Source: Chrysogorgia sp. JL179-B06
Taxonomy: Eukaryota; Cnidaria; Anthozoa; Scleralcyonacea; Chrysogorgiidae
DNA: 64,000 nucleotides
Direction: 5' to 3'
Assembly: GCA_035772405.1 (NCBI GenBank)
Contig: JAYKKM010000155.1
Coordinates: 186,001-250,000, forward strand
The position numbers and the translations under genes are program-made. Within the stretch, counting starts at the first letter, position 1; every line of letters starts with the position of its first letter. Positions 9,906-36,136 of the stretch are shown here, one piece after another. Under the pieces are notes generated by a model. It searched no databases. It had not been told where the DNA came from and worked only from the letters and a program-made list of their open reading frames with translations.

Positions 9906-12439
9906 AATGAGGGGGGTAGGGGGAGCAGAGACGGGGGGGGCTCATTTTGCTTGAATGTAGACTTTTTACTATGTTGCAATGTTAATAAACTGCTTTTTCT
10001 TCGATTATTTTCAATTCACAATGTTTAGACAATCCTGAATCTCCTGGCTGTTTTTTGAGGATTTGCAGTTGTCAACTGATGTCCCAATGGACTTTTGTCC
10101 AGGATTGTAGTTTCGTTTACTGTATAAGCTCTGAAGTAACAGAAACAAAAACATATATGTCAACGAACTTCGTGTGAATAATACCAAATAATGACAAAGG
10201 ATGGATATTTTCGATAAAAATCATACCCTACAGCAACTAGAAATTAACAAACAACAGCTCGACTAAAAATATATAAAACGGGGTTAGCTGGAAAATACGG
10301 AGTCGGAGTGCCGGAGTACGGAGTGCCGGAGTGTGGAAAAGACGGAGTGTGGAATGGAAAACACGGAGTGTGGAAAACACGGAGTGTGGAAAACACGGAG
10401 TATGGAAAACACGGAGTCGATGTGACGTAGTTGTCAGCGTGGAGTATGGAAAATAAGGAGTCTGTGACCGCGTGTAAATATACTAAATACCGTAAGAGTT
10501 CGAACGGTTTGATAAACCGCTATTAAACTGGAACCTGTCGAACTGATTCCGCAAAGCGTTTAAATGCGAAATAATCGAACACTACTCACTGATCTGGACG
10601 CAGACCGTTTGAAGTTTTGAACGCTTGCAGTTAAACGGTATGAACGCTTAGCTCAAAATTCATCCATTCAAATCGTTAGATTTCGAGAACTTTCCTCATT
10701 TCAAAACAGATATCTTGCTTGACACGGCGGGGTTAAAAAGCGAGTCGCAGGTGGCGGGTAGATACTAGCAGATAGCGGGTACGAACAGGAAAAATATGTC
10801 CTTTTTAATAATAAATCTACCTAGGAAAAAACATTCGAATCTGATATTACATACCTTAAACAATAAATATTATTCAAAACTTTTGCGTTATGCTGTAAAT
10901 AACAGCAAAAACTTTTAATTTTTTGGGTTAATATTAACCCCTGAATAAAACGACTTTGTGTTATCTGGGTAATCAATAAACGCCCGACTAAAACGGACGC
11001 TAGTCAGCCTCACTCTCCTCCGCATGCAGAGGCTTCTTGCGCTTTTATTTGTAGCAATAATGTAATTTGTATTAGGCTCACAGGGTGTTTTGGGGACGCG
11101 TCAGCCTAATCTTGTATCCGAGACTCCCTAAATAATAGACATTTAGTAATTTAGGCATGCAGCAAGTCAAAAAGGAAGTACTCTAGTCATTCTACTTTGA
11201 TGAGTCAGCAAATACTCTCAATTTTATATTTAGAATTATTTCGAATTTTATTATTTCAAAACAAATTATGAGGATATATCATGAGAAAAAGTTATTATTC
11301 GAAATGATGACCAACTCTCCCTGTTCTAAGAATGACTAAAGAATATTGACTTTCCCACGATCTCGTTTAATGTTTACAATGGAAGATTACTATGGGGCGC
11401 CAAATGTGTTTTTATTATTTAAACGTTTTATGTCAGTTTTTTTAATATATATTATAGGTTGCAGTTTGTCGGTCGTTGCAGTTTGTCGGTCTACCAATTG
11501 TTAGAATTGAGCTGTAAGGTCTATAATATCAGATTCGAATGTTTTTTTTTATTTTTCCTGTTCGTAACCAATCTTGGTTCAAGCCGGAGACTGGTTTCCA
11601 GTACTTTTAATAAATGAGTTTCAAACGCTATTGCATAATAATATGCGTTGTTCTCTATTTTGGTGAATTATTTTGGTCAGACATACATTGTCATTGAATG
11701 AATTGAGAGACCCCGTGTATGATCGATAATGTTTTTGTCGAAACGCTTGCACTAAACGGCTTAAAAACGGCTTTAAAACTAAAACGCGCAATACGAACTC
11801 CCTTTGTTTTTGACCGTGCTAAATGTAAACATATCAATCAAATTCGCATGTTTCACATTGAAAAGGAACCATTTTTCTCTCGATTCATTCAATAACAATG
11901 TATGTATGACCAATACTATTTACCAAAATGAAGAGCTCATTTATTAAAAGTACCGGAAACCAGTACAGGAAAGCAAACTGCAAGCGTTCCGAACGGTCTG
12001 CGTCCAGACTGTCAGTGAGTAGTGTTCGATTATTTCGAACGTTAAAAACAAAGCGTTTAAACTCTTTGGACCAGGCATTTAAACACTTTGAATCAGTTCG
12101 ACAGGTTCCAGTTTAACAGCCATTCGAAAGGTTTGTTATATAATTTGAAACGGTTTATCAAACCGTTCGAACGCTTACCGAACGGCATACGAACGGTATT
12201 TACACGCGTTGAATGCTGCGGAAGAAGCTCTTGGCATCCCCCCAAAGACCAGACCTAGTACACAGCTGACTCCTTATTTTCCATACTCCACGCTGACAAC
12301 AAACGTCAGACTCCGTGTTTTCCATACTCCGTGTTTTCCATACTCCGTGTTTTCCACACTCCGTGTTTTCCACACTCCGTGTTTTCCATTCCACACTCCG
12401 TCTTTTCCACACTCCGGCACTCCCACAGGACGAAAACGC

Positions 12440-12860
12440 ACCCTTAATATGCTATTAAAGTAGGATTAATGGCGTATTTTATTCGTGTTTAATTACACTT
12501 AATGCGATATATTAAAGACACTAAAGGTGCCTTTTAACACCTTTAGTCAGTTGTATTAAGTGTATTAACGACGGGTTTAGTACCGATAGACTAAAGTTCG
12601 ATTAAAGGGTATTAAGTGTGCATTTAATTTAGGAGATTAAAGACTCATTAAAGAGGTTTAAGGATGTATTTAATCGCCTTTAATGTCGGTAGAATTGTTG
12701 ATTAAAGACGAATTTAATCATACAAAGATTTGTTGCTTAAAGGGTATTAAAGGTGAATTTATGCCGTTGATTAAAGACCGCTTAAAGCGATATAAAGAAT
12801 AAATTAATCACCTTTAATGCATTGATTAAACTTTGTGTAAGTGCAATTTTAACCCTCTTT
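12440..12860. repeat. Left subterminal TTAAAG repeats of the giant element
   Basis: Dense degenerate repeats of ATTAAAGG, CTTTAATC and TTAAGTGT in both orientations, with no coding potential. Matching sequence lies at 35420-35725 at the other end. Such clustered subterminal motifs are the transposase-binding regions of EnSpm/CACTA elements. That function is inferred here, not shown. Confidence 0.6.
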
Positions 12861-14006
12861 AGTCGCGCCATTATATTTGCAATAACCTGTATGACTCGTG
12901 ACGTTAGGTTTTATTGTACTTTTGAACATGTGTAATGTGTAATATCTTCTGACCATATTAATATATTCATAAATACAAAAACTCCACCTTGCTCGACTCA
13001 AGGGTCATGCTGCACAGATAACATAAAACATGCAACAAAACGATAATTTATAATGATGAAATGCAACATTAACTCAAATATACAACACGCGTTAATTTTT
13101 AAAATACATTTATTATAACAAATACCTGTGTATGTACAAATATGAAACTAAAATACATTTTACATAAATTAGTCGTTATTCGCGTAACTGCATGAAACAT
13201 TGAGTTTAACGATTAAATTTTACAATAACAATAAAGATGCATAAGGGTCTTTAGCTTTCAGTAAATACGAACCTAAAATGATCACGTTTTGTGATTGGCT
13301 TTCTAAGACAAAAGTGACTAGTGTTTGTGACTCGTTCTTTAGAAAATTTATTCTATAGTTATATTGTTATAATAAACGAATCACAAAACCTGTTCATATA
13401 GGTTCGTAGCGACCCTTAGCTTTCGAATGATACCTTTTAAAATTGTGCCGTCAGAACTATTCCTCTACTTGGATGAATGCGATTTAATTTAGAGCGGAAA
13501 TTTTTAGTAGAAGAGTATATATTTGGTCTTTTCTGAATATAAAATAGGCACTATCGAAAACTGAAAGCTCGTTTTATTGCTATGTCAAAAGTGAATCGTT
13601 TATAAACTCTCAATATTAAGCGCAAATAAACCTGTTAAATAAATTGCGTACTCGTCTATATGTAACATATTCAGCTATCAGAAATTGTGTTGCTAATTTA
13701 CGCATACAAAGGTAAAAGCCAAGGCTAAAACTAAACGGTCAAGCCAAGCGAATATAGTGCAATTTCCTTAAATCTTTTAGCTCCTAACTGCAAGCTTTCA
13801 TATGTATTTCAATTAAATGAAGAATGTTGGTAACTTAAAACTTATCTCTTCTACAGTACTTTTCGCACTTGGCTTAATTTTAATGCATTTAGCTGCAAAT
13901 AACACATGCAGAAACTTAAAACATCGCTTAAAAATGAATAAAGTGTGTGTATAAAGAAGCCCATCAGTAATTAAGTTTTCTAGAACAAACAGTTCAGAAT
14001 TATAGT
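12861..14006. other. Non-coding, probably downstream region of the minus-strand gene
   Basis: AT-rich with no exon recognised. It would contain the 3-prime UTR and polyadenylation site of the gene ending at 14007. The 65-codon minus-strand frame at 13813-14010 overlaps the gene's stop and is not supported. Confidence 0.4.
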
Positions 14007-17000
14007 TCACCGAGAGACATTTAGATCCACAGCTGCATCATCATCTGGCGTTCCCTGCACTGGCGGATTTGTGGACACATTTGCGACTTGCGCTGGTGGG
14101 TTTTCAACAACACATGTCCAATCTGGACAGTTGGCTGGTTTCGGCTTACTCGATGGTTCCCCTTGTTCCCTTGGTACCATAACTCTTTTCGATAGTCCAG
14201 GCAGTGATTCTTGATGACTCTTATCGAGCTTTTTCTTTGCCCGCCTTAGTTCTCTGCTTTCCCAGGAAAGCTTTCGCACGTTATAATGCTTAACCCTACG
14301 GGTTTCTTCGTCCATCTCGCTTTCGTCGGATGACATGTACTCCATCCTGAGGACATCTGCCACCTTTGCCACTTTCTCCAGGCTCCAGTTTACTTTATTG
14401 AGGTGTTTCAATCTTCTTGCCAGTTTCTAAAATTAAATACCGACAATATTAGCATCATTCAAGTTTTTACCCATCATGTGCCAACGAACTTTGAAACTTA
14501 TTGGTATACAATATATATAAAATGCAAGATTTTCTAACTTTAACCTTCAGTGAAATATATTTCAGATGAAATATATTTCAGATGAAATATATATATATAT
14601 ATATATGTTATTTACCGGTTTGGAGGTCCGTATGGAGAAATATTTCCCGAGGTCTCAAAAACGGCCCGAGGCCGCAGGCCGAGGGACGTTTTTGAGACCA
14701 AGGGAAATATTTCTCAATACGGACCGACCAAAACGGTAAATTATTTATTTATTTTTTTCCTTAATATCCCGGCTTGTTTTTTTTGGTCGTCATCAGTATT
14801 TCTAGTCAGTGGACAAAAAAGAAAAGTCTGTGCTTTTTATGCGTCAAAGGAAATTGAGAGTTAACTCTCTATCCTGATAAAAATATGTCTTTCACTATGT
14901 TCAATCTCGTTTGAGTTCATTTTCAAATGTTTTTAGTATATTTTACGGCTTATAAAATGCGTTTGCATTTAAAACTGAAATTATGTCGAGCGGTCCGTAT
15001 CTCACACGGACCGCTCGTTAGCCAATCAGAAAGCAGGATTTGGTAGGATACGGACCGGAAAAAATAAAGTAAGGGATGTTGTAATTTTAAAATTAGAAAA
15101 TCTTTCTGTGAAAAAACAGGCATCTTCTTAGATCTTGACTAAAAGTACACAAGAGTGATCACGAATGACCACGAATGTCCACGAGTGCTATTTTCATGTT
15201 TGGTCGCAGGGTTTCTCAGTGCCCGCACTCCCATCCCGGGTACGAGGTTGGGATACTCGCAACTTAAATACAAATCCCAAATATATCTCTAATCCTAACA
15301 CTTACCCTAATCCTAACCGAAAGCCTAACCCCGCGTCCTTCTCGCCCAAAAAACGTCTTTTTCGCCCAAAACGCCTGTGGAGGAGGTAGCCCTAACCACA
15401 CTCCAACCTTAATAGCAGGCTTAAACTAACTGAACTCATACAATAATATATAATTACTTTCTGATTTGAAACTTAGTTGGAAATTATTTTCAAATCAACA
15501 AGTGATTTGAAAAGAATACACCTTTAATTATTTTCCTGAATGGGTTTCTTTTTTTTATTCACAGTGTATAAGAAAAGTCTTGTCAGCGATAGACGTTATA
15601 AATACTTGTATTCCGCATATTGATCTGGCATTAGGTATCTTTATAGAGCTGTATATAGCTCTAACTTATATATACTATAGGCTTGTACTGTACAGGTATA
15701 TTGGTATAATATGGGCATACCTGTATAGTGGGTTCTTGATATTACATCAAGTTGTTTTTTTTGCGTGGGAAACATGAAGGTTTTGGTTAGATGAGATACT
15801 CCCAGTTTAAGCTTGCGATTAAGGTTGGAGATAGATTTGGGATTTGGATTTAGTTCAAACATATGATTACTTCAAGATTCTCAACTGCGAGTATCCCATC
15901 TAGCCGCGACCAAACATGAAAATAGCACTCGTGGTCATTCGTGGTCACTTCACTCGTGTGTACTTTTAGTCAAGATCGTCGTCTTAAGCCAATGCATGCA
16001 ATTCGAATTTCTAGCTAAACAGTTCAGAATTATAGTTCACCGAGAGACATTTAGATCCACAGCTAATGCATGCAATTCGAATTTCTAGCCCTTCTTCTAA
16101 TGAAACAGAGTATTGTCAAATTAAGTGATAGTGGAAAATGATACTGTGAATTATTAAGGCATGACGGTATAAGCATTATAAACTAAATAACACACCTCCT
16201 TTCTGCTTCTCCTCCTGCAAGTACGAACATGCTTCTCTTCTTGTCCACTGGCAACTCTCTTCTCCCTCGACTTACACGACTTATGGTATCTCTTGAATGC
16301 TTCTAAAAATAAAACATAAAACGTAACTATCACTTTCCGAGTTTACTTTTATGCAAAGGTATAAAATGCCGGATACAGTATAGTTAATGGGCTGTTTAAA
16401 AAAATGGGAAAATTATAGCTGTGTCCTGTCATAGAATTACGTTAATCTAATAGCGAGCAAGAGGTCTGGAACTAGTAACAGAGTAGAAATTCAATTCGTT
16501 ATAATCGCTTGTTTCTTATTTTTCCTTTATGAAACTGGTTGACATTTTGTAATGATGTTTAGATGAAAGCAAATGCCATGCCAACTTTGATAGCAAAATA
16601 AAATTTATTTCGCAAGATAATGAGTATAGCTTTAATCTATTTGACAACTAGTCCCAGTCTTGTTCAGTGCTATCAGATCACTGGAAGTATTTGCATTTTC
16701 ATATCATTGTTTTCCATGAAAAGTTGAGATTTAGCAAACATACACGATTTGTACTGTACCTGTTCCCACCCTTATACCAAGTGTACAATGATGGACATGT
16801 AATATTTGTATAAAGTTTATTTTGATACCTATGTCAAAACTACACGTAAACTAACTTTGCCTATAATTAAATATTTAACCATTTGTGAACTAGACCGTTG
16901 ACTGGCTGTTATTTTAACTTTGTAATGGGGGCAGGGGTTCAGTTTGGAGAATTTACAATTTTATTACTAGCTTTAACCTCGCCTCAATCGGAGTACACTA

Positions 17001-18980
17001 TCTGCAGACACTCCGGTTTAATATGTCGCTATCAGTATTCAGTGCCAAGTAGGACACTACTAAGCCAGAAAAAAAGCAGAACGAAACACCAAAATAACCA
17101 AACGGAGCATATTTCGAATGACGTCTAAATTAGAATAGAACTAGACTCAATGCCAATGGATGACGGTTTCCTTACTCGTTGTCACGATTATAAAATATCC
17201 TCTTTTTGCTTTGTTTCCGCCTTTGGTTCTTCGAGTTTCAATAACAATCTCAGGTTTTACACTGTGATCAATTTGTTAGCCCCATGCATAAAGTGTAAAG
17301 CATTGTCAAAGACTGGATTAAAGTTTCGTTCCTCTGATTCCCTATCAGTATCACAAATTTTTAACGTTCATTAAACAGGCTACTATACCTTTTAAAACAA
17401 CAGCTGACCATGGACAATTTTCCTGTCCACCAAATTCATGACGTAATTCTTGAACTAGTCCACTAAACAGTAGAGCATTTTGCTGAGATTCCGGGCTACA
17501 GTAAATGGCAAATGAAATATGAAATAAGGATTAAGCACTTGTAGCATATACTGTCGAACTGCATTGCTTGGTTATTCTACGTATGTTACAGTAACTGTTT
17601 TTCAAATTCATGAATATGCAGCAAATATAAAATCACAACCAATAAAAATGATGACCTGAACCTAAATAAAAAAAATTCATGACAGATTTATCAGATTTAA
17701 GGCTTTATATTAATAATTTCCAGTTGATTTAATCAGGTAATGGACATTAGCTGTATCATATATGCCTTTCCTCACCCAAACGCTTCTACTATTGGTATTA
17801 TAAAGCAAAACTTCTGGGTGCATTCTCCTAAGCCTAAAATGGTAAAGAGAAAACTTCTTGGCTTTTTGAGCAAAGGCCTTTCATCAGGATCTTGTTTGTG
17901 CAAAGGGCCTTTATCGAAACATAGAGAAGCTTTTCTTTACTCTTTAAAGCAGACAATCAAATCCACCTCAAGTTGTGATACCTGGAATCTGGCAGACACT
18001 AAAGACCCCAAATTTAAAGATTTTTATTAAATACAAAGTTGTGACTCACTGTACCTTTCATTTAATCTAAAGTACAAATTTTCATCTGCACTTTTGAGGG
18101 CCTTGATTTTTCTTCGGACATTATTCTAATAAATATACAGTAAAGTAATAAATATATGTTGTGTTTTCCACCAACCAAAACAAGTCATTGTTTCACCAAG
18201 CAAAAAAGTACCACAAATTATCAAGACCATCTGTTAATATTGTATCAGATTAAGCTACCAGAAACATCCTTATCTTATGCCCAGCAAATACTTGAACTGT
18301 CCCTATTGACAAGTAAAGTATTTGACCTTTGGTGGTACATGTAACTGTAAAATATCAAAGTATGGGTGGACTTAGGCAATTAATTTGAAGTGCAATGGGT
18401 TAACTAACCATTAATGCCCAACACGCCCCCCCCCCCCTTGACAAGAAAAATCATTTGGTATTTGATAGACTAAAATTACAAATCAGGCTAGTGTACTTGG
18501 GCACAATGGCGGCTATGTTAACTAGAGACACGCGCAAACACTAGTCTGGTTAACCCATTCACAAAGAGCAAAATAAACAAAGTAGGGAAAATAAGGCGTA
18601 TTAGTACTGATCATACTGTATCGATATACTATTGCACATACTGTAATCTCAATGACTATTCTATGAGATGATAGTTGACAAATTAAAAACTCCACTCTTG
18701 TCAACTTGTGTTCATAATCAATTTGTTAAAAGGGCTAATAAGGGATGCAATACTCTGCCCTTGACAATTAAAATATTTGGTATAAGACAGTACGTATATA
18801 ATAAAGAAAGTTTGAGTAATTATCAAGTGTTGAGACCCAGAAGTTAACTGACAAGATCTGAAGGTCAATGGTTGAGACCTGTGGCAAGACTTCTGGCAAA
18901 TTGTTGTGAATAAAAGTTATATATTTAACCTGCCAAAAACTATGCAAAAAATAAATATAACAGCACTACATACGTACAGT

Positions 18981-19012
<32 letters not shown>

Positions 19013-20358
19013 TTTATTGAAGTTATAACTTACAGCATCAAAGGCTGAATTAAAATAACCTTTACATTAAAAAGTATATTTATATGTTACACTAAAATTT
19101 TATAAAATTATGATTACATTCTTAATACGAGTATCTATAGGAATTGTATGTAATATATTTTGTGTATTGTTTGGGTATTGTTGTGAAATTAATTGACCTG
19201 AGTGTGGTTTTAACCACTGTACTTATAGTGGTGTAATATTTGTTTCACAGGATTTGAAGCACGGGATCATGGATTCATCACATACCCTATTACGCCACAT
19301 ATAAGCGCATCTCGGATAAAGAAGTTTTCCAAAATTGCAGAAAATTTGTTTATGGCGATGCGCTTATATGCGGCATAATAGGGTAATAGCTCAGTTGATT
19401 GTTTTGCATGCACCGAGGTGGGACCACTGGTTTACAGTACATACAGATCTACAGTATGCTTTTAAAAGCAAAAAGGAACCGTAAAACTGTATGTCATTCA
19501 AGTCTCAACCTTGATTTTTGAGTCTCGACCTTGACTTTAAGTCTCAACCAACAACCTTCAAGTCTCGACACTAAACCTGCAGCGAGTTTTGACACTCAAC
19601 AAAATTACCCAAACTCTAATGAAGCAAAGCACATTAACAATGGGTTCATAAGGGACATTGGCAAATAGTTTGATTTATAACCCCATAAAATAGGATAAAT
19701 GTGTAAAACACTCCTCTTGACAAGTAAAGTCATTTGGCATTAATTTAATACTGTAGCCCAAGTAAAAAAACAACAAAAGCATTGTCACTATAAAAAAGGC
19801 ATACAGTCTCTTGTTTGACCCACTATAAAGCAGCAATGGCCTCTAATATGTCTAATGTATATAATGCACTATAATTGAATATGAAGAGATTCAGTCAGGC
19901 ACTTTAATGCATTAAATACTAGCAATTTTAAGAAGCATCAATAGCCATTTTATACACAACATGACAAATTAAACTTATATAATAAGATTACTATTAGCCA
20001 GCCAATTCAAATAATATGGACTTTTATATGTCATTGATTTTGAAATAATATGGACTATATGTCATTGATTTTGAAAATGATTTCAATTTTGGCGCCAATA
20101 TATCAAATTAACAGTATTTACAACGGTCAAATGGACAAAGTCTAATTATATATACGAAGCATTGTCTGATGTATTCTTGAAATGATATAAATAAACCAAA
20201 ATATACACTGTTTTACTTACACTGCAAGCCTTGGGCACTTTCTCTTTATTTTGTCCGGTCTGCTTGACTCGTCTCCCAGTATTTGTTCGGGCCATAATAT
20301 CCATCTTCTCGTTAATATTCTTTAGCGCATTTTCACTGCTAGTTATTGTATTGGCCAT
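14007..20358 (-). CDS. Five-exon gene of unknown function, cargo of giant element
   Basis: Exons on the minus strand are 20358-20221 (upstream limit uncertain), 18125-18055, 17495-17389, 16302-16196 and 14426-14007. Every junction has GT/AG and a consistent phase (0, 2, 1, 0), giving 280 residues from the ATG at 20358. An in-frame GTG at 20442 would extend it. Exon 1 looks like a coiled coil (LLQNVVQENRLLREQ lies before the ATG, then NALKNINEKMDIM). Exon 2 reads NNVRRKIKALKSADENLYF, exon 3 QNALLFSGLVQELRHEFGG, exon 4 is strongly basic (KSCKSREKRV, then RTCRRRSRKE), and exon 5 has an acidic SSDESEMDEE patch, a basic RRAKKKLDK patch and a low-complexity tail. The family is not recognised. A DNA-binding accessory protein of the transposon would fit the position and charge, but this is inference. 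Confidence 0.7.
14611..14740. repeat. 130-bp near-perfect palindrome
   Basis: The half starting TTTACCGGTTTGGAGGTCCG is the inverse of the half ending in ACCAAAACGGTAAA. The centre is GC-rich (GGCCCGAGGCCGCAGGCCGAGG) and the next tier is GGTCTCAAAAACG. It lies within or beside the last exon's upstream intron. A second short inverted pair, GCGGTCCGTATCTCACACGGACCGC, follows near 14990-15018. It is probably a foldback MITE; no target duplication was resolved. Confidence 0.6.
15131..15977. mobile_element. Inverted-repeat element in the last intron
   Basis: The ends GATCTTGACTAAAAGTACAC and its inverse extend about 100 bp (15131-15260 against 15880-15977). Flanks TCTTCTTA and TCGTCTTA may be a decayed 8-bp duplication. 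It holds a telomere-like degenerate stretch (CCTAATCCTAACC near 15310) and no transposase. Its position in the intron between exons 4 and 5 of the minus-strand gene is consistent with those exon calls. Confidence 0.6.
15991..16089. repeat. Templated 48-bp duplication of the gene's stop-codon region
   Basis: Bases 16017-16064 are an exact copy of 13987-14034, which spans the stop codon and final codons of the five-exon gene. The copy is flanked by a 25-bp direct repeat (15991-16015 and 16065-16089, beginning AATGCATGCAATTCGAATTT). The copied piece is too short and too exact for a standard transposon. It looks like a double-strand-break repair insertion that used a template 2 kb away. Confidence 0.8.
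18983..19012. repeat. (GATA)n microsatellite
   Basis: About seven tandem GATA/TAGA units in the first intron of the minus-strand gene, followed by TTTATTGAAGTTATAACTTA. Confidence 0.9.
19285..19383. mobile_element. 99-bp MITE with TA target site
   Basis: The ends CCCTATTACGCCACATATAA and the inverted TTATATGCGGCATAATAGGG form inverted repeats of about 28 bp (including GCGCATC). TA dinucleotides flank both ends (19283-19284 and 19384-19385), as expected for Tc1/mariner-type insertion. Confidence 0.7.
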
Positions 20359-20442
20359 TTGTTCTCTGAGGAGCCTGTTTTCCTGTACGACATTTTGCAA
20401 CAGCAAAACATACTGGTCTGGTAGGGAAACGCCGGTAGTCAC

Positions 20443-23772: not shown

Positions 23773-25490
23773 CAGAAGGTCCACTCGGGGGTACGCGGTG
23801 TCCTCGTTATTTTAGTGCGCATGCGTCGCGCCGCCATGTTGAAAGCAAGTAAACTCCAGCACCTCAACAAGGAACAACATGGCGAAAAACGAAGTTGGAT
23901 CACTAAAGCAGCTCTAGCTGGAAAACTATTACGGCGATTTTCATTTTACTTTGATATATTTTAAATGGAAGGTAAGCGATTAATTTACTTGTGGTTAGAA
24001 GATACATACACAATTTTTTTGTGTGGAATTTAGCTAGTTTTGAGTGACGATTTGTCCGATCAATTTTAATACGCGTATCACAGCCAAGACACAATCTACG
24101 GTACGTCAAGACGGGATAAACTTTTGTCAATAACAGTTTTATTCATAAAGTATTTGTGCATATTAGTTAAAATCTTAATATCATGACTGTACTGTGTGTA
24201 AAGATTTCCTTTGTTTTTAAAAATTATACTTGTTCACTTTCAAGATATGTAGCATTAGTAGTTCAACTGACTTCAACGTTGCCTAAAATATTTACCAAGT
24301 TAATAGAATTGCCTCGCAGCGTTCCTTAAAATTACTCGTTCAATTCAGTCAGTAATAATACCAGATAATGCGATTTCATCCTTCTGTCTCAGTTTTATGT
24401 TTGCCGAGTTCTTATAGCGTTTTTACTCTTATGCCTGTAAATACATTTGTGTATGGACAAGGCTTTTTAGTATTTTACTATCTTCTTTACCTACCTTGCT
24501 ATATTTTTGAAGTTTCAGATCATAATATATACGGTTTTTTTTCTTTATTTTAGTTGATGTTATGTTTGAACTTTATCTGGATTTGACAGCTCATTGAATT
24601 GAACGCAAGCTTCCATTCTTGATGAGACAACTTGATGGGAATTTTAATAAAACACTATATCTCAAATGCTTCAAATTCAGACCAGATTATACATAATGGA
24701 CCATATTTGACTGCTGTATACTGATATATTTAACTGTATTGCTGTTCCTGGATTAAAGTGGATTTCAACTCATAATAAGAAACTGACCAGACTGTCAAGG
24801 CATTTGTGATTTAGTGCATGTTTTGACAAATGATAAAGATAATAATTATATGTTGCAGCAGATTATTTTAAATATCAGTGAAAGCATTATTTTTGTATGT
24901 CTTAATGTTTAATAAAAATGTTTTTAAAGTACAATGTTGAGACACTGATTTGTGACAATTAGAACTGTGACATAATTTTAACTAAAGTTAGAAGATTGAA
25001 AATAAAGAGTTAATTAAAAGGGAGTTAAAATAAAATTTAAAAAGTTAATTAGAAGGGAGAGTCTGTCACTTGTTAAGGTTAAGGAAAGTATGGTTTACCA
25101 GAAAGAATTTAAAAAAGGCATGATATCATAACAGAGTTGGGAACTCACTAGAGGGGGTTTCAAAGAAAGACTGCTTATAACTTGGTATCAAAAGAGGGGA
25201 GTTACTTGCCACAAAAGTTTTAGATGGCTTATGGATAAGAGTGGGTTGCTGAAAATAAAGCATTATAAAAGGATTGACTGACAAAAAAGGACAACTGTTT
25301 CTTAATTTTTTATAACTATACAATGTCCCAACAGATATCCACTTATTTGGCATTTATGAGAAACAAACCTGCCAGAAGTCCTACAAATAGGGCTCCGAAT
25401 ATCCAACGTGGCAGCGGTTTTGCGAAAAAGTGTTCCAGGAAAGTGTTCAAACATTTTCGCTGCTCTTTGTGGTTGTGTTATTACACCAAA

Positions 25491-28400
25491 ATGGCTGATT
25501 TAGAAAGTGCTGTTTCGTCAGATAAAAAACCCGGATCCAAAACGCATTGTTCAGCTGTAAACTGCTCGAACAGCAAGCGTTCCCATCCTCATCTCAGTTT
25601 TTTCCGCTTTCCGTCAGATCCAACAAGGTACGTTTTGCCTCGTTCAAAGCTAATATAACTTGACCTTTTTCAAAAAAGGGGGTATTTTAAATCGTTTAGA
25701 TCAAAAGAATGGGTAGTGCTATGTCGACGCGAAGACCTCCTGAAAACGAGTGCTAACTATCTATACAATAATTGTAAATTGTGTGCGGAACATTTTGAAG
25801 ATTGTATGTTTTACAACTATTTGAAAAATCGCTTGAAATGCGAGGCCAAACCTACACTGTTCAATATCCCAAATCCACCAACCAAAATTGGTCAGAAACG
25901 ACGAATCCTGCAGAAAACGTCTACCTATGTTGGTCAAGGTAACTATAGCATTTCCTGGTCATTTCTCCTGTACCTAAATCGTTTAAAATTTTGTCAAAAT
26001 GCAGTCTCAATAAGCTTTTGTCCTTTCAGGAAAGAAACTAAAATTAGGCGAAAGTGTTAAAGGTATGTGAAAACAGCCACACTAGTACAACAACTTCTTT
26101 TTTCAATTGCCCCTACTCTTTCTACAGACTACACCTATACACCAATGTGAGACTTTCAAAGTTTAACCCAAAAAACAATTAAGTTTTAATATTTATTTAT
26201 TTCACAATTACTTTTTATTTTATGTTACATATACAAGATATCATATATCATAAAAAAACAATTTAACAACAAACGATTTTTAAACAATATAGTGCAACAT
26301 GACATACAGGAAAGTCCAAGTAAGGAAGACAGCAATGAAGCACATGATATTGAACATTTTGAAGGTAAGGTGATTCATGCATGACCTTTTACATATATGA
26401 CATAAGTGTCTGTGCTAAGGTATAGGACCTGAAAAGAAAGATAATTAGACAGAAATTAATCCACTCCACTTTTTTCGTATTCAGAGCATCAAGAAGATTC
26501 AGAGAGGAACAAAACAACAAGTTCCAGTAGTCAAACAAGCCATCACCTTTCCAACAACACACCTAGAAAAAACAAACAAAAAAAAGTTATTAAATCTCAG
26601 AGCAAGAAAATCAAGCGGTTGAAGACAGCTCTTAGTAAAGTTGCAGGTGGGAAAAAAGCCAGAGAAGAGAAAGCTTTAGAAGATGCCCTAGGGAAGTTAC
26701 CAGAAAATTTGGCAAATTTTGTAAAGATGCAATTGAAATTACATTCCAAAAAAAAACATGGAAGAAGATATTCGTCACAGATGAAGTCATTGGCCATCTC
26801 TTTGTATCATGCCAGTGGGAAAGCATATCGATTGCTCTCTAAATTATTTGTTTTGCCAACCAAATCATCTCTTCATAGATATGTATCAAAAATGCCAACA
26901 AACACTGGTATATCTCAAGCTGCTTTGAAAATAATACAGAAGAAAGTTATGCAGATGGGCACAAAAGAAAAACTGTGTACACTGTGCATGGATGAAATTT
27001 CTTTGAAAACCAACTTATTTTACAGCATACCTGGTGACAAAATTGTTGGTCTCGAAGACTTTGGGGATGGTTACAGGACCAACAAAGTGGCAACCTCGGC
27101 ACTTGTATTACTGGTCCGCAGTATCTCTGGGAAGTGGAAACAGCCAATTGGTTATTTCTTGGTGAATGGAGGATGTCGCAGTGACATCATGGAAGATTTG
27201 GTGAAAGAGGCAATTGAAAAACTGGATGGCATAGGTCTAAAAGTTGTGGTGGTTATGTCAGACATGGGATCCAATTTCTACAGTTTGTCTCTCCGTCTGA
27301 AAGTCACTCCTGAAAGGCCATGGTTCATGCACAATGACCAGAAGTATTTCCTGATGTTTGATCCACCACATTTGCTAAAGTGTGTGCGAAACAACTTGAT
27401 AAAGTATTGCTTCAGATTTGGTCAGCATACTGCCAAGTGGAATGACATCGAGAATTTTTATGAAAAAGATACAGCACTTCCCATCCGAGCTGCACCTAAA
27501 CTAACAGAAAAACACATACGCCCAAACAATTTTAATAAAATGAAGGTTAAGTATGCCACCCAAATTTTAAGTCACACTGTAGCAGCCTCACTTTGCATGT
27601 ACATTAGTGTGGGGGCAGGCGCGGATTTAGAAGTTAGTCGCATAAATTAGATTTATAATTTGCAATTCAAAATACCTGTGAATAACAATCCTATTGGATA
27701 GGTTGTTGTTCTGAATTATTCTTAAGAAAAGCATAACCAATAGGGTTGTTCATGGAGTGTCTAATTTATGCGACTAACTTCTAAATCCGCGCCTGTGTGG
27801 GGGGACTTCCATCAACTGCCATGGGAACAGCAGAGTTTGTTTCCAAATTTGATTCTGTGTTTGACTGTGTCAACAGCTCCACAGTGCACTCAACAAAAAA
27901 GCTAAAGTGTGCCCTTAGTGACAAAACCACACACCAAGATTTTATGAAAGAAGCAATCACATTCATAAAAGAATTAAAAGTTTTCAATGGAGATGAAAAT
28001 GTAACAGGTAGAATTAAGTGCCTTAAAGGGTGGTTGGTTACGCTCAATGCAATTCTTTTAATTTGGGATCAACTCAAAACAAACCATGATTTTAAGTTTC
28101 TTTTCACAAGAAGACTAAATACTGACCCCTTAGAGAATTTCTTTGGCACCATACGGCAACAGGGAGGGAACAATGACAACCCAACACCAGTACAATTCAC
28201 TAGGGCATTTAGGAAATTGTTTTTTAGTTCTTTTCTTACTTCTTCGGCTGGGAATTGTGCAGAAGACTTGGATGACCTTCTTGCCCAGTTTACACAAGCA
28301 CCAAATGCAGAAACATCAAATGCAACAGCACTGGTTGCCAATGCCACATCTCCTCAACCTCAAACCTTGGATATTGGGCCAACTGATTACAGAGAGACAA

Positions 28401-28873
28401 ATGTAAACTCAAACATTATTAAAGAAAATGCCATTGCATATGTTTCTGGTTACTTGCTCCATAAATGTGCCAAGATCCACAGTTGCTCAACATGCAAAGA
28501 AGCCCTGGTGTCAGACAATCTAGACAATGACAGAAAGTTACTATGTTATTTCAAGGCATACGAGCAAGAGAAATCAACTTTTGGAGGCCTGAATGCACCA
28601 ACTAATAGTTTCTTACAATACATCATTCAGCTGGAAGATATTTTTTATCAAAACTTCTCCATTTTCACCAAGAGCACCTGTGTTGGAGGAAATATCCTGA
28701 AGCTACTGAAGAATGTACCAGTAACATTCCAGTGCTGTGAAGAATTCCCTCTCGACTTTCTGCAGAAGTTGTTTTTGAGAATGCGTATTTATTATTGTCT
28801 AAAATTTGCAAACCGTGACCTTTCCTCTGTTAAAAGAAAGGACAGAAAGTATGTGAAGGTGGCACATCTTTAA
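25491..28873 (+). CDS. P-element/THAP9-like transposase, spliced, interrupted by MITE
   Basis: DNA transposase of the P superfamily, cutting and joining element ends in the nucleus. Exons are 25491-25627, 25700-25938, 26030-26062, 26293-26364 and 26485-27615, resuming at 27804-28873; all introns are GT-AG with matching phases. With the MITE and one target copy (27616-27803) left out, the frame is 893 residues, close to human THAP9 (about 903). An N-terminal THAP zinc finger spans exons 1-2 (CSAVNCSNSK, FFRFPSD, KEWVV, CKLCAEHFED). A basic coiled segment (KKIKRLKTALSK) follows. RNase-H-like core motifs are LCMDEISLKTN and VVMSDMGSNFY, then FDPPHLLKC. C-terminal motifs are PLENFFGTIRQQGG and IAYVSGYLLHKC. 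The ATG at 25491 directly precedes the THAP domain; an upstream in-frame extension reaches 25323. No stop or frameshift was seen outside the MITE. Confidence 0.85.
27616..27795. mobile_element. 180-bp hAT MITE inside the P transposase
   Basis: Terminal inverted repeats start CAGGCGCGGATTTAGAAGTT and extend about 34 bp. An 8-bp duplication, TGTGGGGG, lies at 27608-27615 and 27796-27803. CAGG-type ends and an 8-bp duplication indicate the hAT superfamily. The insertion adds 188 bp, shifts the frame and brings a stop at 27648. It can be distinguished from an intron because no GT-AG boundaries coincide with its ends. Confidence 0.9.
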
Positions 28874-29735
28874 ATCAACAAAGAAAATGGGAACAGAACT
28901 GTCAAACAATGTAGAGAAACCAGACAACCAGTGTTATAATTATAAAGCTAATAACTTTCAAGCGTATGCTTTTGAAATATTTCTCAATGATTCAACTCTA
29001 AGTCGAGGACTGCATGAGTCATATATAATAACTTCAATAAGTCAACAATAATAAATATGAAAGCTGCTAAGTTCTCAAAAGAATTGGATATAATATGAAA
29101 AGGAGAAATAGGAGAACTTCAATGTGTTGAAAAATACTTAAGTAAGAGTACTTACGTATATATATATTAATGGGACGACGTTTCGGACGATGTGTCCTTC
29201 CATCTGATCTCAATATAAAGTTAATTACTGTACATTTAAATTTATAAATACCAAAATGAACAACTTTGGTTTGGCCTAATATCGAATACATCAAATGTAA
29301 ATAAATAAGCAATTTACGACTAAGTGTCTATCAAGTCAATCAACTCCACTAAGTGTCTAAAAAACAAGTAAAAATACAAGCGGATATGGATTTGTAAAAG
29401 TAAAGGCTAGTGCCGACATTTTGACAAACTCGAGGACAGACCGAGTTGTCAATAAAATCGCGAAAATTACCCGTTTAACATTTGTTAAATTGCCTTCTAA
29501 CCACAATAAAATTGATCACCTACCTTTGCTTTACACGTAATAGCCGTGGAAAGAAAATCGGCATGCAAAAGTTTGAGATATAGCCGTTCAAATGATCCAA
29601 ACCCGTTTTTCGCCATATTAATTACTGTTCACCTGGCTGGAGTTTACTTGCTTTCAACATGGCGGCCGGTATGCGCGGAGCGACATGCGCGAGGACAAAA
29701 ACTTCAAAGGTTCCGACGCGAGTGGACCTGCTATA

Positions 29736-30268
29736 GGGGACAGTTACCCGACCGGGGCCAGTTTAAAATAGCGCGCGCGGGAAGATCGCATTCGCATTGT
29801 CCTACATAGCACTTCGCAACAACAGTTTGATACGCACAAAGACCATCGAATTCTGTAAAGCTTTTGGTGGTATACCTTGCGCAAAGCCGGTTGAAATGGC
29901 GCATTTTAACCAGGCATCCCACACAGCGAGTGGCGCACTTGCTACCAGTGGAATGCGCAGCCGTCTGGAAGCTACAATCCCAGTGCCACCAAAGGCTGCA
30001 CAGAATTGTTTACCTGCCAAGCAACGACGTCTTTCAAGACCAAATAACTCTGAGGAACTGCGTCTTAAATATCGCAGACGTAATAAAAAGTTGCGAGAAA
30101 AAAGGCGTGTCTAGAAATGCCAAACAAAGGCGTCTAGAGGATAAAATAAAGAGTCAGATCGAGAAGGAGCTCAAAGCCAACCCGTGCAGCAACATCCAAG
30201 CTACGATCGAGGGCAGAATATTATTGGAGAAAGTGGAAAGAGGAAAGATCCATGCGTACAACGACTAG
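29736..30268 (+). other. Unrecognised open frames beside the P element
   Basis: Two overlapping plus-strand frames (29797-30114 and 29864-30268). The second ends NAKQRRLEDKIKSQIEKELK, then ILLEKVERGKIHAYND. The first ends in a basic YRRRNKKLREKRR stretch just where the second becomes lysine/glutamate-rich, so one frameshifted coding exon is possible. GC and CpG content rise at 29736-29800. A GTAAGT donor-like site follows near 30275. No family recognised; possibly further cargo of the giant element. Confidence 0.3.
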
Positions 30269-32043
30269 CAGTGTGTAAGTACATATAGAAATTGTATGTA
30301 ATTGCTATACAAAATAAACAAGTTTGAGCGGTCTGAAGCTGGATGGCCTTAAATAATGTAATTTAATGTAATAACATCAGCTTTTGTTTTACTATACTGT
30401 ATAATGTATTATAAACCAGGACTAGGAGGGCTGGGGCAGCTGAAGCCATCCGATAATACTCAAAAGTACAGAAAGGTTTGTCAGGTTTGGGGAGCCCCTA
30501 GCCAGGGACGTCAGAACGAGGTCACTGAAGAGGGCAAGGAGGGAGAATTTTGTGGAGGGGCACTTTTGAATAGATACTGTATATATTCAGGATTGATATA
30601 TATTCAATGTTAAAAATTAACCTCCAATCATCATTATTGCAATAATGCACCTATCAATGTTAAGCCGGAAGGGGTGGGGGGGGGGGAGGGCCAGCAAATG
30701 CGGGCGATTTGACATATATACCTTGAGTGACATGGAAACTTGAGTGACACAAGGTTTTATAATTTGGTGAGTATATTAGTATAATGTACTGCAGCAGTGA
30801 TTTTAATGCTTGGTTAGAGTATGAAAGAACTACACAAATGGAATTAATATATGTAATATATGTATAGTACAACTCGTTCACTCCCGGTTGATGACTTGCA
30901 GAATTTAACAATCAAGCGTCAACTTCTAGGTAAGTCTCATTTAATTTTCAATTTACAGTCATGTTTGCCAGAGTTTTCTAGAACATCAGCAACTGAACAT
31001 GAGGTATCATTGTGTTTGATTGCACACATGTTGGTATAATTCCACTGTGATGCAAATATATAATGCTAATAATATTATCATTTATAATTATTATAATTGT
31101 AAATGTGTCATAAATTTCTGTTGTACCTGGATTAAGGGCACAATCTGCTTTGAACAGGTGGATTTATGTAAATAAAAACCTTGAATTAAGGATGAGCATT
31201 AGTAAGATGCACAATGTACTATTGTTTTCTGATCTGTGTCAATGTTTATGACTAGTTTCTGTCAACAGTACACAGGAGTTGGGCAATACCCAACTACAGT
31301 ATAGTCGGGGTGCAATAATAAACAATGAGGATATGTTTAATTCCTGCAATGTCCTGGGGTGGGGTGTTGGAAGTTTTAATTCACAGTACATGTGTTGTGT
31401 GTACTATTTAACTTCTACGAGACTGTTTTTGCGTACAATGGAACAAGGTGGAAATTTTAAACCATAATTTAAATATTAAAAGTAAAATGAGGTAGGTTAA
31501 AACTAATTGCAACTACAGTACAATCCCCAGGCTGGCTAGGTTTCAGCCGAGGCTGAATTCGAAATTGGGCAGCTCAATATGAGCTGAAATATGTTACCAG
31601 GATTTTATTACTGGCTGGGCTGAAATTTCACCTCGGTTTACTTGGGCTAAAACTGAGCCTTGGGTTAAAATCATCGATGAGTGTTAAAATCATGATGTGA
31701 GTATTCCCACTGCCATTCCATTATTTCAATTATTTCATGAATAGGTAAAACTTGTGATTGTTGATGTGTCAGATATTGATTGTTTAAATATAAGCTACTT
31801 AGTTACATGGTCAAACTCTGAATTTCCTGGCAAATTTGTGTCAGAAATAGCCTTATCACAAGCTACATGGGACACATATATAAGAAAATTTATATACTCA
31901 TAACACATAAATCTAATACGAGCATAATATTGTAGCATAAGATGCTGGAAACAATTGTTATGTCAATAATAAGTCGATATATTATTAACTAAATATAGAA
32001 TTGGAATGTTTGCAAAAGGTATGTTTTCAAGGAATTTATATAC
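30269..32043. other. No gene recognised inside the giant element
   Basis: AT-rich DNA where the rest of a minus-strand zinc-finger gene would be expected, but I could not find transposase motifs. A G-rich run lies at 30671-30690. A GGCTGAAA/TTTCAGCC-rich patch (31540-31680) resembles motifs in the Harbinger-like element at 58 kb. Confidence 0.4.
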
Positions 32044-32231
32044 CTGCAAAGTCGCAACTATTAAAATCAGTTTCCCCATCTGTATCGGACGAATAAGTCG
32101 AAGAATCTTTATTCAAACTTCGCTTTAGCTGGAAAGATTGATCCAAAGCCATATGACGCCGGAATGTTTTTTTCTGAAACGCTTTGCTTGCAGTGGTCGC
32201 AAAATACGTAATTCCCAACCTTAGTATTCAT
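32044..32231 (-). pseudogene. Zinc-finger first exon with homopolymer frameshift
   Basis: On the minus strand an ATG at 32231 opens MNTKVGNYVFCDHCKQSVSE. After a run of seven A (near 32175) the reading must shift by one base to continue KTFRRHMALDQSFQ, then SSTYSSDTDGETDFNS, ending at a GTATAT donor at 32043. The CxxC, VS, TF, RH pattern followed by an acidic serine-rich stretch is the kind of N-terminal exon I associate with invertebrate EnSpm-like transposon proteins. That association is from memory. One extra A would explain the break. It supports the EnSpm reading of the giant element. Confidence 0.45.
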
Positions 32232-32430
32232 ATCGCCGGTACTTTTAAATATTTACCAAGCGTAATAACAGAATAAATTGGCGATATATAAAAGCGTTTC
32301 ACTTCTAAAACGAGTAGAATCACAGCGAATTTGCGGTGGAGCACGTGTAGTATTATCTGAGTATCTGTGACAAATGCATCGAATATCATCATGTTTATTG
32401 GTTACCATGACTACAAATAAGATTGTCTTT

Positions 32431-35414
32431 AGGGGCGGACCATTTGATTTTTGAGGGGGGGGTTGGAAGATTCAGTCCATGCAAGCATTTTTTTTCTACC
32501 CAAGCGAACGAGCCAGATATTTTTTTCGCGTAAAAGTGCAGCGCAAGATATTTTTTTCGCAATATATTCCGCTGCAGGATATTTTTTTGCCACTCATGAT
32601 ATTAACGGCTTACAGTAACTTAATAAAGCTTTCATACGCTTCAAGAACTGTGTACCTAGAACGTCGATGGCGGCATACGCAAACTGCAGAAGACCGCCAG
32701 TTGTATCTCAATCAACGTGCATTGGTTAAGGACATTATAAACTCCGCTAAAATGGAATATTTTACTTCATTAATTGAGGAAGCGGGATCTGACCATAAGA
32801 AACTTTTCCAAACAATTGATCATCTACTTCACAGGAAGCCTGAGAAACTCTATCCAACATGTTCATCAAATGCGGAACTTGCCAATCAATTCGCAAATTT
32901 CTTTGACCAAAAAATCAAGATAATCAGGCAGCAATTTGCGGGGACTGGGGCTGATGGATCTCGGTTTACAGAACTAGACACGCCTCAGCTTGTTTGTGAA
33001 TTGAGCTCACTTACACCGACCAGTATCGAGGAGCTGTCAGACATGATTAGACCTATAGCACCAAATCTTGTTCTCTCGATCCTCTGCCATTCCAACTTGT
33101 TGTGAATAATCTTGATGTTCTTATGCCAATTATCTGTAGAATCGTCAATGTATCACTAGAGAATAGCCAAGTACCATCTGCTCTCAAAGTGGCTGTGCTG
33201 CAACCGCTGTTAAAGAAACCTTCGTTAGATCATGAAATCTTTAAGAACTTTAGACCCGTGTCTAATTTGAAAATGACTTCTAAAACAACTGAAAAGGTTG
33301 TTGCAGTTCGCTTAAACCATTATCTTGAAGAAAATAACCTATGTGAGCCCCTCCAGTCCGCATATAAGAAATACCACAGCTGTGAAACTGCATTACTCCG
33401 AGTTCAAAATGACATTCTTTGTGCCCTTGATGACAATAAATGTGTTGTACTTTTAATGCTTGACCTCTCACCTGCTTTTGACACTGTCGATCATGACATT
33501 TTACTTTATCGAATGCAGAGCAAATTTGGAATCACCGGCAAAGCCTTGGATTGGTTTAGATCATACTTAACCGATCGTACCCAGTTTGTGAATATCAAAG
33601 GTGTGAAGTCTGATATTCACAATGTTACATGTGGTGTTCCCCAAGGGTCTGTTCTGGGTCCAATATTATACCTATTGTACACCTCTCCTTTAGGCGATAT
33701 TCTTAGAAACCATAACATGTCGTTCCATCTCTATGCCGATGATAGTCAACTGTATACTACATTTAGTCTCAACAGTGACATAGAACAAGACAGTGCAACC
33801 AGCCGCATCGAAGTCTGTATAGTTGACATTGAGAGTTGGATGAACCAGAACAAGTTGAAACTCAATGGTGACAAAACTGAACTTATTATTTTCTATCCAA
33901 ACATCGCCAGCCTCCCAAGAATTCTATAGTATCTGTCGGATCTGATCAAATTGAGCCTGCTGCTTCTATAAGAAATTTTGGTGTCATCTTTGATAATACC
34001 ATGTCTATGGTTCCACATGTCAACTCCGTATGCAAATCTGCATTTTACCATCTGCGCAATATTGCAAGAATAAGGAAATTTTTTACCTCTAAATCAGCCG
34101 AAACACTTGTTCATGCTTTTGTCAGCTCCAAAATTGATTATTGTAACTCTCTATTATATGGCATCCCTAAATATATCTTGCAAAAGCTCCAATATGTTCA
34201 GAATGCTGCCGCCCGTTTGATAACGCTGTCACGCAAGCACGATCACATTACACCACACCTCATGCATCTACATTGGCTACCTGTTGAATATCGTGTCCAT
34301 TTCAAGATTCTTCTTCTAACTTACAAAGTTCTGAATGGCCAAGCACCAATATACCTCCTTGATCTATTGCAGTACTACACACCCAAGAGAAACCTCCGCT
34401 CATCTTCTGCTTGCCTCCTTCAACAAAAACGATTCCGTCTGTCCACCTACGGTTCACGTGCTTTCTCCGTCACAGCACCTCTACTATGGAACAAACTGCC
34501 CCTTTCGATCAAGAAATCTTCAAATTTAACTCAATTTAAAACTTCCGTCAAAACCTATCTATTTAAGCTTGCTTTTTTTTAATACTTTGTTTTATTATTG
34601 AATATAGTTGGTTTTTTAGTTTGTTTTTTTAGATATAGATTATTATGTATTTATTATGTAAAGCGCTTAGCACCAATAGGAATAAGCGCTATATAAATGT
34701 ATTATATTATTATTATTATATTACCTAAAAAGTCCTAAGTTCTGATGTCAGAGAAACTATTAAAGGCCATAAATTATAAGGAACTATGACAACAATGGTG
34801 TATAAAAACTGATGTTTTAATATTCAAAAAATATTAATATAAATATTACTTGTGTATAGAGACCTTTAGAAGTTAACCTATAGCTATTTTTATAGGAAAT
34901 GAAAGCCTGTCACTATAAAGCTGAACCCAAGGGTGAGTAAAATGAAATAGAAGTGAATTCCTAAAAATCCACTTCTATTCTATTTTATGCACCTGTGCCT
35001 ATGGGTTTAGCATAGTGCTATCTGCTGTAAAGGAATTCTAACAATAAGTAATTTCTGCTTGATTGAAGTTGGCATTCTGCTGACCTATAGACTGATGAAT
35101 AGGATAAATTATACCAAATATAAAATCACTGTGATGTTGTCCACTGTTCACCCATGTGTTCTTTTAAGTCAGCAAATCTGCAAATGTGCCTTCTCAAAAA
35201 TGCAAAATCAAGCCTGTGGACTTGGCCTGTGGACACCATACCGAAGAGCATCAGTAGCTTGTAGGAATTTATTTTTTTGAGCACTCTCTTTGCATGATAT
35301 TTTTTTTCCTCGATTGTACGCTGCATGATTTTTTTTTTCTTTCTTCTAGGCTTGCAGGAATTTTTTTTTCTAAATCTTCCAACCCCCCCCTCAAAAATCA
35401 AATGGTCCGCCCCT
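32431..35414. mobile_element. Inverted-repeat element that received a LINE
   Basis: The ends AGGGGCGGACCATTTGATTT and its inverse at 35395-35414 are matched over about 42 bp, followed by repeated T-rich GATATTTTTTTC blocks on both sides. GGGGCGG termini resemble hAT families, but no 8-bp duplication was found. The LINE at about 32640-34725 lies inside. The remaining right part (34726-35270) has no recognisable gene. Confidence 0.6.
32640..34725 (+). pseudogene. 5-prime-truncated CR1/L2-type LINE, reverse transcriptase
   Basis: Encodes the connector and reverse transcriptase of a non-LTR retrotransposon. Motifs in order are [60 protein letters not shown] (catalytic) and the C-terminal LHWLPVEYR block, ending at a stop at 34582. 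Two one-base deletions break it, near 33063 (PIAP to [10 protein letters not shown]) and near 33900 (FYPN to HRQPPKNS). The endonuclease domain is absent, so the copy is 5-prime truncated. The 3-prime end has AGCGCTATATAAATG followed by TATTATTATTA, typical of this group. Not able to move by itself. Confidence 0.85.
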
Positions 35415-35419
35415 TAATC

Positions 35420-35725
35420 CCTTTAATATTGTCGCAATAAAGAGAATTAATGAAGCTGTCGGCTTTTGACTTCCTTTAAATTCAAATTAAAGGTGGTTAA
35501 ATCCCATTGCTGTCTTTAATCAAATTTAAAACATGCATTAAAGGTGACTAAAGCAAGCATGGTTTAAAGTCGGTTTTATGCTGCTTTAAAAGCTAGACTA
35601 AGTGTAACTAAATCCATAGGTAATGTGATTAAATGTAATTTTTTATTTAACCACATTTAAGCAACATATTAAAGGTGTAAACAGACATTTAATATATTTA
35701 GTGTTTTTATTAAAGCTAATTAATG
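35420..35725. repeat. Right subterminal TTAAAG repeats of the giant element
   Basis: Repeated ATTAAAGGTG, TTTAATC and ACTAAAG motifs mirror the left end at 12440-12860. This pairing supports reading 12424-35744 as one element. Confidence 0.6.
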
Positions 35726-36136
35726 ACACGCATTTCGTCCTGTGGATCCGTACTCCGGCACTCCGACTCCGTATTTTCCACCTAACCATAAAACGTTACC
35801 TGCACAGCATGAATGACGTCTTGTGGAGAAACGGCTTCACTATGCCTTCTAATATTCATCTTTTTCAGACGCCTTTTCAACGTTGCTGGACTATATAAAA
35901 ATAAATATGGTATTTTTTTATTTTATATAAAATTTGTATGGATTACACACTAAAACAGTGCAGTTTTTTTATATCGGTGTACAAAATACAAATATCGTAG
36001 ACGATTTACCTCCATGTACAACCAAATTCTTCGGACAGGTAAAGCAGTATCATCCGAACATGTACAAAACAACGTTCTCTCTCAAGTATTGCTGTCTATT
36101 TGTAGAGTAATTGAACATATTACGTGGGCTAACATC

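Follow-up and report, generated by a model that had tools for sequence, protein, structure and literature searches.

A probable non-autonomous EnSpm transposon in a Chrysogorgia coral, with relatives that carry a protein kinase gene

The window analysed here is a stretch of 64,000 nucleotides of the coral Chrysogorgia sp. JL179-B06 (contig C155:186001-250000 of the 781-Mb host assembly, G000). Our subject is the mobile unit at 12424-35744 of this window, which holds a coiled-coil gene (g1) and broken exons of two further genes (g2 and tnp2), together with its relatives elsewhere in the genome, named below by contig, in which g2 is a predicted protein kinase gene and tnp2 a transposase gene.

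The unit is bounded by exact inverted copies of CACAGGACGAAA at 12424-12435 (plus) and 35733-35744 (minus), the sole two exact matches in the window. By itself this 12-mer is little proof of a unit, because the window holds seven matches at up to two mismatches against 4.4 expected. The hexamer TTAAAG/CTTTAA is not enriched across the whole window (72 found vs 82 expected), but its density at the ends of the unit is far higher than the window mean, with 12 occurrences in the first 400 bp and nine in the last 330 bp (Poisson ~1e-13 on the left and ~3e-10 on the right, for windows that were chosen). The junctions can be read directly because the target also occurs uninterrupted twice in the window, at 10282-10322 (minus) and 46383-46423 (plus), both times as GGCACTCCGTACTCC; at the filled site, the order is GGCACTCC, element, GA, TCCGTACTCC. 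Further, the two halves of the interrupted element belong together, since an 8-bp duplication, ATAAAACG, lies on their far sides at 10273-10280 and 35788-35795. This non-coding target element has a ACTCCGTGTTTTCCAC array, and a further copy of its end lies at 46258-46423.

The strongest proof of the unit is a second copy on contig C361, which measures 11,832 bp end to end, is flanked by TTA on both sides and is free of the nested blocks. It is colinear with window positions 12424-18984, 19148-20757, 29731-30767, 30778-32405 and 35411-35744, at 90-95% identity where aligned; a 163-bp stretch (18985-19147) occurs only in the window and ~360 bp near window position 30770 only in C361. The left 447 bp of the unit match 12 places in the genome and the right 332 bp match two, the unit itself included in each case, and C361 has both. 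One could still suppose that two short miniature inverted-repeat transposable element (MITE) ends happen to enclose host DNA, and 245-bp miniatures with the same 12-bp ends do account for seven inward pairs among the 100 places listed. However, the same 11.8-kb interior stands in C361 within a TTA duplication of its own, and left-end-anchored copies of interior parts lie at C284, C212, C292, C107 and C394. Chance pairing is refuted by C361 and keeps practically no probability. An earlier note on this DNA had described a giant mobile unit with inverted ends and arrays inside another transposon, and the exact ends, the empty sites and the C361 copy confirm that a single transposon with CACAGGACGAAA ends lies within a non-coding element of 2.2 kb. 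The epithet fares less well, as the extra length over C361 consists of later nested insertions, without which the 23.3 kb come down to ~11.8 kb, near the ~11 kb that the note had estimated.

The five-exon gene of the earlier note is g1, all five exons of which match protein P0001 of the octocoral Dendronephthya, and its broken zinc-finger exon corresponds to the C2H2 first exon of the tnp2 gene. The latter matches C16 in two frames, with expectation values (E) of 0.002 and 0.02 when no more than a few short frames are compared, and no match at E 0.01 to C16 was returned for 32039..32252 in the separate exon search. The kinase exons are missing from the window, where only the broken first exon of g2 is kept; in the relatives P0007 and P0009 the corresponding basic part is joined to a kinase N-lobe. 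Lacking the transposase core, the window copy is non-autonomous. At the position of window 30755-30757, copy C212 (89-93% identical to the window) has a stretch of 7.7 kb that includes exons of the kinase and of tnp2 (61-70% identity to C16; 52% for the tnp2 C-terminal exon), which indicates that the window's own family formerly had both genes. The window copy has its left deletion breakpoint and its g2 frameshift in common with C361, yet the two lie at different sites with different duplications; most simply, the deletion came first and the shortened copy was then mobilized by enzymes from another source. As a separate observation on g1, 48 bp of its end (13987-14034) are copied 2 kb away at 16017-16064, between direct repeats AATGCATGCAATTCGAATTTCTAGC, in a manner like a templated insertion.

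Relatives of the unit and their transposase

Genome-wide, CACAGGACGAAA is matched 286 times, 144 times forward and 142 times in reverse, whereas its reversed control is matched 36 times, and the first 100 of these 286 places were taken into the analyses of the terminal inverted repeats (TIRs). Inward pairs of exact 12-mers number 11 among the 100, seven of them spaced by 245 bp and the others by 12,855, 15,779, 17,727 and 23,321 bp, the last being the window unit. The three long elements other than the window unit were fetched, along with four of the seven miniatures. The long copies (12.9, 15.8 and 17.7 kb) and the 245-bp copies have ends, subterminal repeat arrays at both ends and 3-bp duplications in common. 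The flanking 3-bp duplications are identical in seven of the eight elements read, C361 counted: ATG at C16, ATA at C82, TCA at C95 and TTA at C361, and, by eye for the miniatures, TTT at C76, TCA at C90 and ATG at C148, with C109 off by one base. C16 (15.8 kb) and C95 (12.9 kb) occupy separate sites, with ATG and TCA as their respective duplications, and are 99.3-99.7% identical over five long blocks, and so the family has moved recently. In addition, back-to-back outward pairs of CACAGGACGAAA, ~3.1-3.2 kb apart and with shared flanks, were seen at C26, C74 and C186 (and, by coordinates, C119); these pairs are labelled L018, L019 and L020.

Because the window copy has lost the tnp2 core, the evidence for superfamily membership comes from these relatives. 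A transposase of the EnSpm group is recognised by two motifs, C(2)C and H(3-4)H, placed between its second D and its last E (PMC12730594). In C16, which carries g1 (minus), g2 (plus) and tnp2 (minus), a tnp2 exon matches Transposase_21 above the cut-off (E 2.3e-17), and the stretch from D at 372 to E at 629 includes C(2)C at 391 and H(3)H at 605; the motif criterion is that of PMC12730594, and the assignment of the catalytic D and E is our own. C82 (17.7 kb) matches Transposase_21 below Pfam's cut-off (E 3e-4); its kinase and tnp2 pieces are 36-58% identical to C16 and its g1 match 31%. Between their CACAGGACGAAA ends the fuller members hold, in fixed order, g1 (coiled-coil, minus), g2 (kinase, plus) and tnp2 (C2H2 and Transposase_21, minus).

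Collectively, the unit very probably belongs to a CMC/EnSpm (CACTA-like) cut-and-paste family as a non-autonomous copy with an internal deletion; the fuller members of this family hold g1, the g2 kinase and tnp2. The group named in the earlier note thus stands on CAC ends (5'-CAC..GTG-3' in the window copy and relatives), 3-bp duplications, arrays and tnp2 in relatives, and the TNP2-type transposase that it proposed to look for in full copies is found in C16 with the motifs in order. Searching with each end, as it had suggested, returned C361 as the copy with both. Short MITEs with the same ends, of which it had warned, do exist at 245 bp, and they do not undo the unit, as long gene-bearing copies have duplications of their own. 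Its idea of a cargo-carrying family holds in that the family carries extra genes; the cargo, however, is a gene set that recurs over several families and not a random host fragment.

The kinase gene and its association with the transposase

By eye, the g2 gene of C16 encodes a basic N-terminus, an N-lobe (GEGTFG, VAVK) and then a C-lobe (HFDIKSDN, DFG, APE). The C-lobe exon of C16 matches Pkinase (PF00069) at E 1.8e-18, and C82 has a match at 2e-19; the C16 match together with the motifs identifies g2, by domain, as a predicted conventional eukaryotic protein kinase; alpha-kinases form a family separate from PF00069. By the usual rule, the DIKxxN motif suggests a Ser/Thr type. The gene model is supported by P0007 of Dendronephthya, which unites the same basic part and the kinase in one chain, and a similar kinase with a basic tail occurs in Desmophyllum (P0018). 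Matches to solved structures by sequence are weak and generic, the best being BTK (E 2.6e-11). The best named relatives of g2 and tnp2, and the named relatives of g1, come from the octocorals Dendronephthya gigantea and Paramuricea clavata.

The genome-wide counts rest on the best candidates scored (kinase, 150 of 462; tnp2, 63 of 1015; g1, 150 of 210), and absences in them are not proven. The tnp2 candidates gave 67 rows, merged into 61 loci. Kinase-tnp2 pairing drew on 99 of 151 kinase matches and all 61 loci, the three-gene count on 70 of 151 kinase matches and 73 of 135 g1 matches, and TIR pairing, for contigs as far as C191, on 47 kinase rows and 31 tnp2 loci. At 39 of the 61 tnp2 loci a kinase lies no more than 12 kb away, in convergent orientation every time. 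Sorted by tnp2 identity to C16, a kinase is nearby at 38 of 44 loci of at least 52% and at one of 17 below. TIRs within 16 kb point inward to kinases in 14 pairs and to tnp2 in 11, and outward in none of either. Three C170 copies with the same ends, where the end lies 2.5-3.1 kb from tnp2, showed no kinase nearby. The kinase is thus apparently a feature of a single clade among these transposons, with relatives that have the same ends and seem to do without it.

It could be argued that the kinase and g1 are near tnp2 by accident, as ordinary genes of the host that unrelated transposon pieces happen to flank or adjoin. Kinase matches of 30-37% identity, presumably host kinases, are near tnp2 in one of 20 cases (closer matches in 41 of 79), so that kinases as such are common in the genome, and maize Mutator-like elements (MULEs) often contain receptor kinase insertions (PMC8647823). 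However, g1, kinase and tnp2 occur together at 28 loci among the matches listed, all 28 in the canonical order and orientation and none otherwise, at tnp2 identities from 50 to 100%; g1 and the kinase are within 10 kb of each other in 23 and 16-29 kb apart in five. Inward TIRs lie near several of these loci, with 3-bp duplications at C16 and C82. In Dendronephthya, g1 and two g2 kinases have an equal longest contig of 296,664 bp, the sole basis for adjacency there; by eye, no kinase match shares its longest-contig size with the tnp2 matches listed (120 of 636). Incidental proximity of host genes is largely refuted by these data and very improbable.

A second alternative is that the kinase was captured once and is a useless hitch-hiking passenger in slow decay. 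In its favour, the distant tnp2 copies live without a kinase (one of the 17 below 52% identity has one nearby), the window copy has spread without one, and 15 of the 44 long kinase matches listed (span of at least 170 residues and identity of at least 37%) have an internal stop. The remaining 29 are stop-free. For the C-lobe exon, the proportions of synonymous and nonsynonymous differences (pS and pN) between C16 and C212 are 0.76 and 0.27, with a pN range of 0.27-0.43; over the kinase exons of C16, C212 and C82, pS is 0.66-0.82 and pN 0.20-0.43, and tnp2 of C16 and C212 gives pS 0.80-0.83 and pN 0.20. These proportions are used, and no ratio of nonsynonymous to synonymous rates (dN/dS) is quoted, because dS is saturated in most comparisons. 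Since synonymous change is saturated or nearly so while pN stays at 0.27-0.43, selection on the kinase, as on the transposase, has been purifying and has preserved it as a protein, and a decaying passenger is unlikely.

Further features of the window

The features are listed in Table 1. TNP-like RNase H domains of a P element occur in the nested block at 20758-29730 alone; a P element was considered as the identity of the unit and set aside, as the P block is nested and missing from C361. Within this palindromic block, telomere-like (TTAGGG)n arrays at 20757-20909 and 23716-23772 adjoin the P-element ends (CAGAAGGTCCACTCGCGTCGG), possibly through target preference or capture. Two small palindromic or TIR elements at 14599-14752 and 15131-15977 of the unit align in C361 too. 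Outside the unit, two long open frames of 268 and 678 amino acids at 52742-55910 have no Pfam match and may, at a guess, be a domesticated or hAT-like gene.

Table 1. Positions of the unit, its parts and its surroundings in the window
Feature	Position	Strand	Basis or remark
Older non-coding element hit by the unit, ~2.2 kb without insert, ATAAAACG outside	10281..35787	.	
Left target duplication TCC	12421..12423	+	Empty-site comparison
Left terminal inverted repeat CACAGGACGAAA	12424..12435	+	Exact match
Left subterminal TTAAAG array	12424..12870	+	TTAAAG counts; 11 other genome matches, 6 of them <270 bp long
g1 exon 5, MSSDE/WESREL C-terminal part	14010..14426	-	64% identity to Dendronephthya P0001 residues 168-298
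g1 exon 4	16196..16315	-	tblastn to P0001 127-166
g1 exon 3 (match extent; true exon shorter)	17390..17587	-	tblastn to P0001 62-130
g1 exon 2	18039..18125	-	tblastn to P0001 72-100
g1 exon 1, SLPDQYVLLLQNVV coiled coil	20221..20430	-	77% to P0001 1-71
Nested later insertion, P-element (THAP/TNP-like) block with TTAGGG arrays	20758..29730	.	Absent from C361 copy
g2 (kinase gene) first exon, basic N-terminus, frameshifted	29836..30265	+	57% to C16 g2 exon
Site of internal deletion	30755..30757	.	C212 has 7.7 kb with kinase and tnp2 exons here
Broken C2H2 first exon of tnp2 gene	32039..32252	-	Short matches to C16 C2H2 exon, same relative position
Nested later insertion, 48-bp-TIR element with reverse transcriptase (RVT_1)	32428..35417	.	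Absent from C361 copy
Right subterminal TTAAAG array and terminal repeat	35418..35744	-	
Two extra bases GA, right end to duplication	35745..35746	+	Empty-site comparison
Right target duplication TCC	35747..35749	+	Empty-site comparison

Possible roles and comparison with known systems

From the ends, duplications, gene content, fixed order and constraint described above, a mechanism can be sketched in which every protein function beyond domain identity is proposed from sequence. The tnp2 transposase would cut at the ends and reinsert the element with a 3-bp duplication, as follows from group membership. In plant En/Spm elements, TnpA binds the arrays and aids end assembly; g1 may likewise bind the arrays and help assemble the ends, a guess by analogy from its constant presence, predicted coiled coil and the arrays. 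The substrate of the kinase might be the transposase or g1, or else a chromatin or checkpoint protein of the host, and its phosphorylation might favour or time transposition. Copies like that of the window, having lost tnp2 and the kinase, would have moved only with enzymes supplied by full copies.

As to the target of the kinase, control of the transposase complex and action on a host chromatin or checkpoint protein are both guesses of roughly equal standing. That it acts on host defence or the cell cycle, and not on the transposase, is a serious contender that we rate a little below even. The basic N-terminus looks, by eye, like a nuclear localization signal, the Dendronephthya relative bears, by similarity only, the NCBI name 'spindle assembly checkpoint kinase-like', and TET/JBP enzymes on fungal transposons have been proposed to evade silencing (PMC12730594).

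Several observations weigh against a kinase-bearing EnSpm family as described. At 22 of the 61 tnp2 loci there is no kinase in the 12-kb range, and 16 of these loci belong to the more distant tnp2 group, so that not every CACAGGACG element needs one. The 28 loci and 14 TIR pairs are not independent, and several sets are near-identical recent copies. Among the individual copies, C212 is right-truncated with a broken tnp2, C95 is without the kinase N-lobe exon and most of tnp2, and the C82 kinase exon has one stop close to its start. The right deletion breakpoints of the window copy and C361 are ~160 bp apart, with filler. In the window copy, a tnp2 core gave no match at E 0.01, and the TCC duplication of the earlier note, sound as to TCC itself and as to the 3-bp length, is imperfect, with GA added at the right end. 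Finally, array binding by g1 is a guess because the predicted g1 structure has low confidence (predicted local distance difference test 60; predicted template modelling score 0.34).

With these points weighed, we tentatively put forward, at somewhat less than even confidence, that in an octocoral EnSpm clade (perhaps also in other corals) a protein kinase became a permanent component of the transposition machinery, which would give the element its own signalling enzyme for cutting, timing or host silencing. Accessory enzymes such as TET/JBP, RecQ, nucleases and alpha-kinase show how DNA transposons manage their host, and a conventional kinase under purifying selection across diverged EnSpm families would, if true, be a new kind of accessory. 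The family offers a testable system, in that some recent copies at separate sites are almost identical, some relatives have no kinase, and some deleted copies moved nonetheless. Further, coral gene sets may include transposon kinases as host 'checkpoint kinase-like' genes.

The plant En/Spm (CACTA) elements, with TnpD/tnp2, TnpA and subterminal arrays at both ends, share with the coral family the CAC termini, the 3-bp duplication, the arrays, a tnp2-type DDE transposase and a second, non-catalytic protein. Unlike them, the coral family has CACAGGACGAAA as its ends and adds a convergent protein kinase gene, and the full-length g1 relative P0001 is without a Pfam match. A cnidarian member of the CACTA superfamily, Spongebob/EnSpm-4N1_HM of Hydra (PMC4298943), differs in being 5.8 kb long, in ending in CCC and in duplicating 2 bp; the main text of that paper does not use the word kinase. 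In the literature searched, mostly without subscription journals and without Repbase Reports, where families of this kind may be recorded, no EnSpm/CACTA element was reported to carry a protein kinase. In the accessible parts of PMC12220107 and PMC8647823, EnSpm and kinase appear in unrelated places, and CMC-EnSpm is under-represented beside most of the amplified signalling genes studied there, a class that includes kinases (PMC8647823). Maize kinase capture of the Pack-MULE type likewise puts kinase sequence in a transposon, but not as a recurrent full gene of an EnSpm clade (PMC8647823). Kolobok lineages with assorted accessory enzymes have also been described (PMC9587614).

Fungal EnSpm elements that carry TET/JBP genes share CAC..GTG ends, 3-bp duplications, a C(2)C/H(3-4)H transposase and an accessory enzyme gene with the coral family, in a fungal host and with a dioxygenase as the accessory (PMC12730594). 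The same paper uses 'kinase' twice, both times for the alpha-kinase of IS3EU. These alpha-kinase genes in fungal IS3EU elements are the closest report: there, too, a DNA transposon has a kinase gene opposite to its transposase, but in another superfamily and with a 6-bp duplication (PMC12730594).

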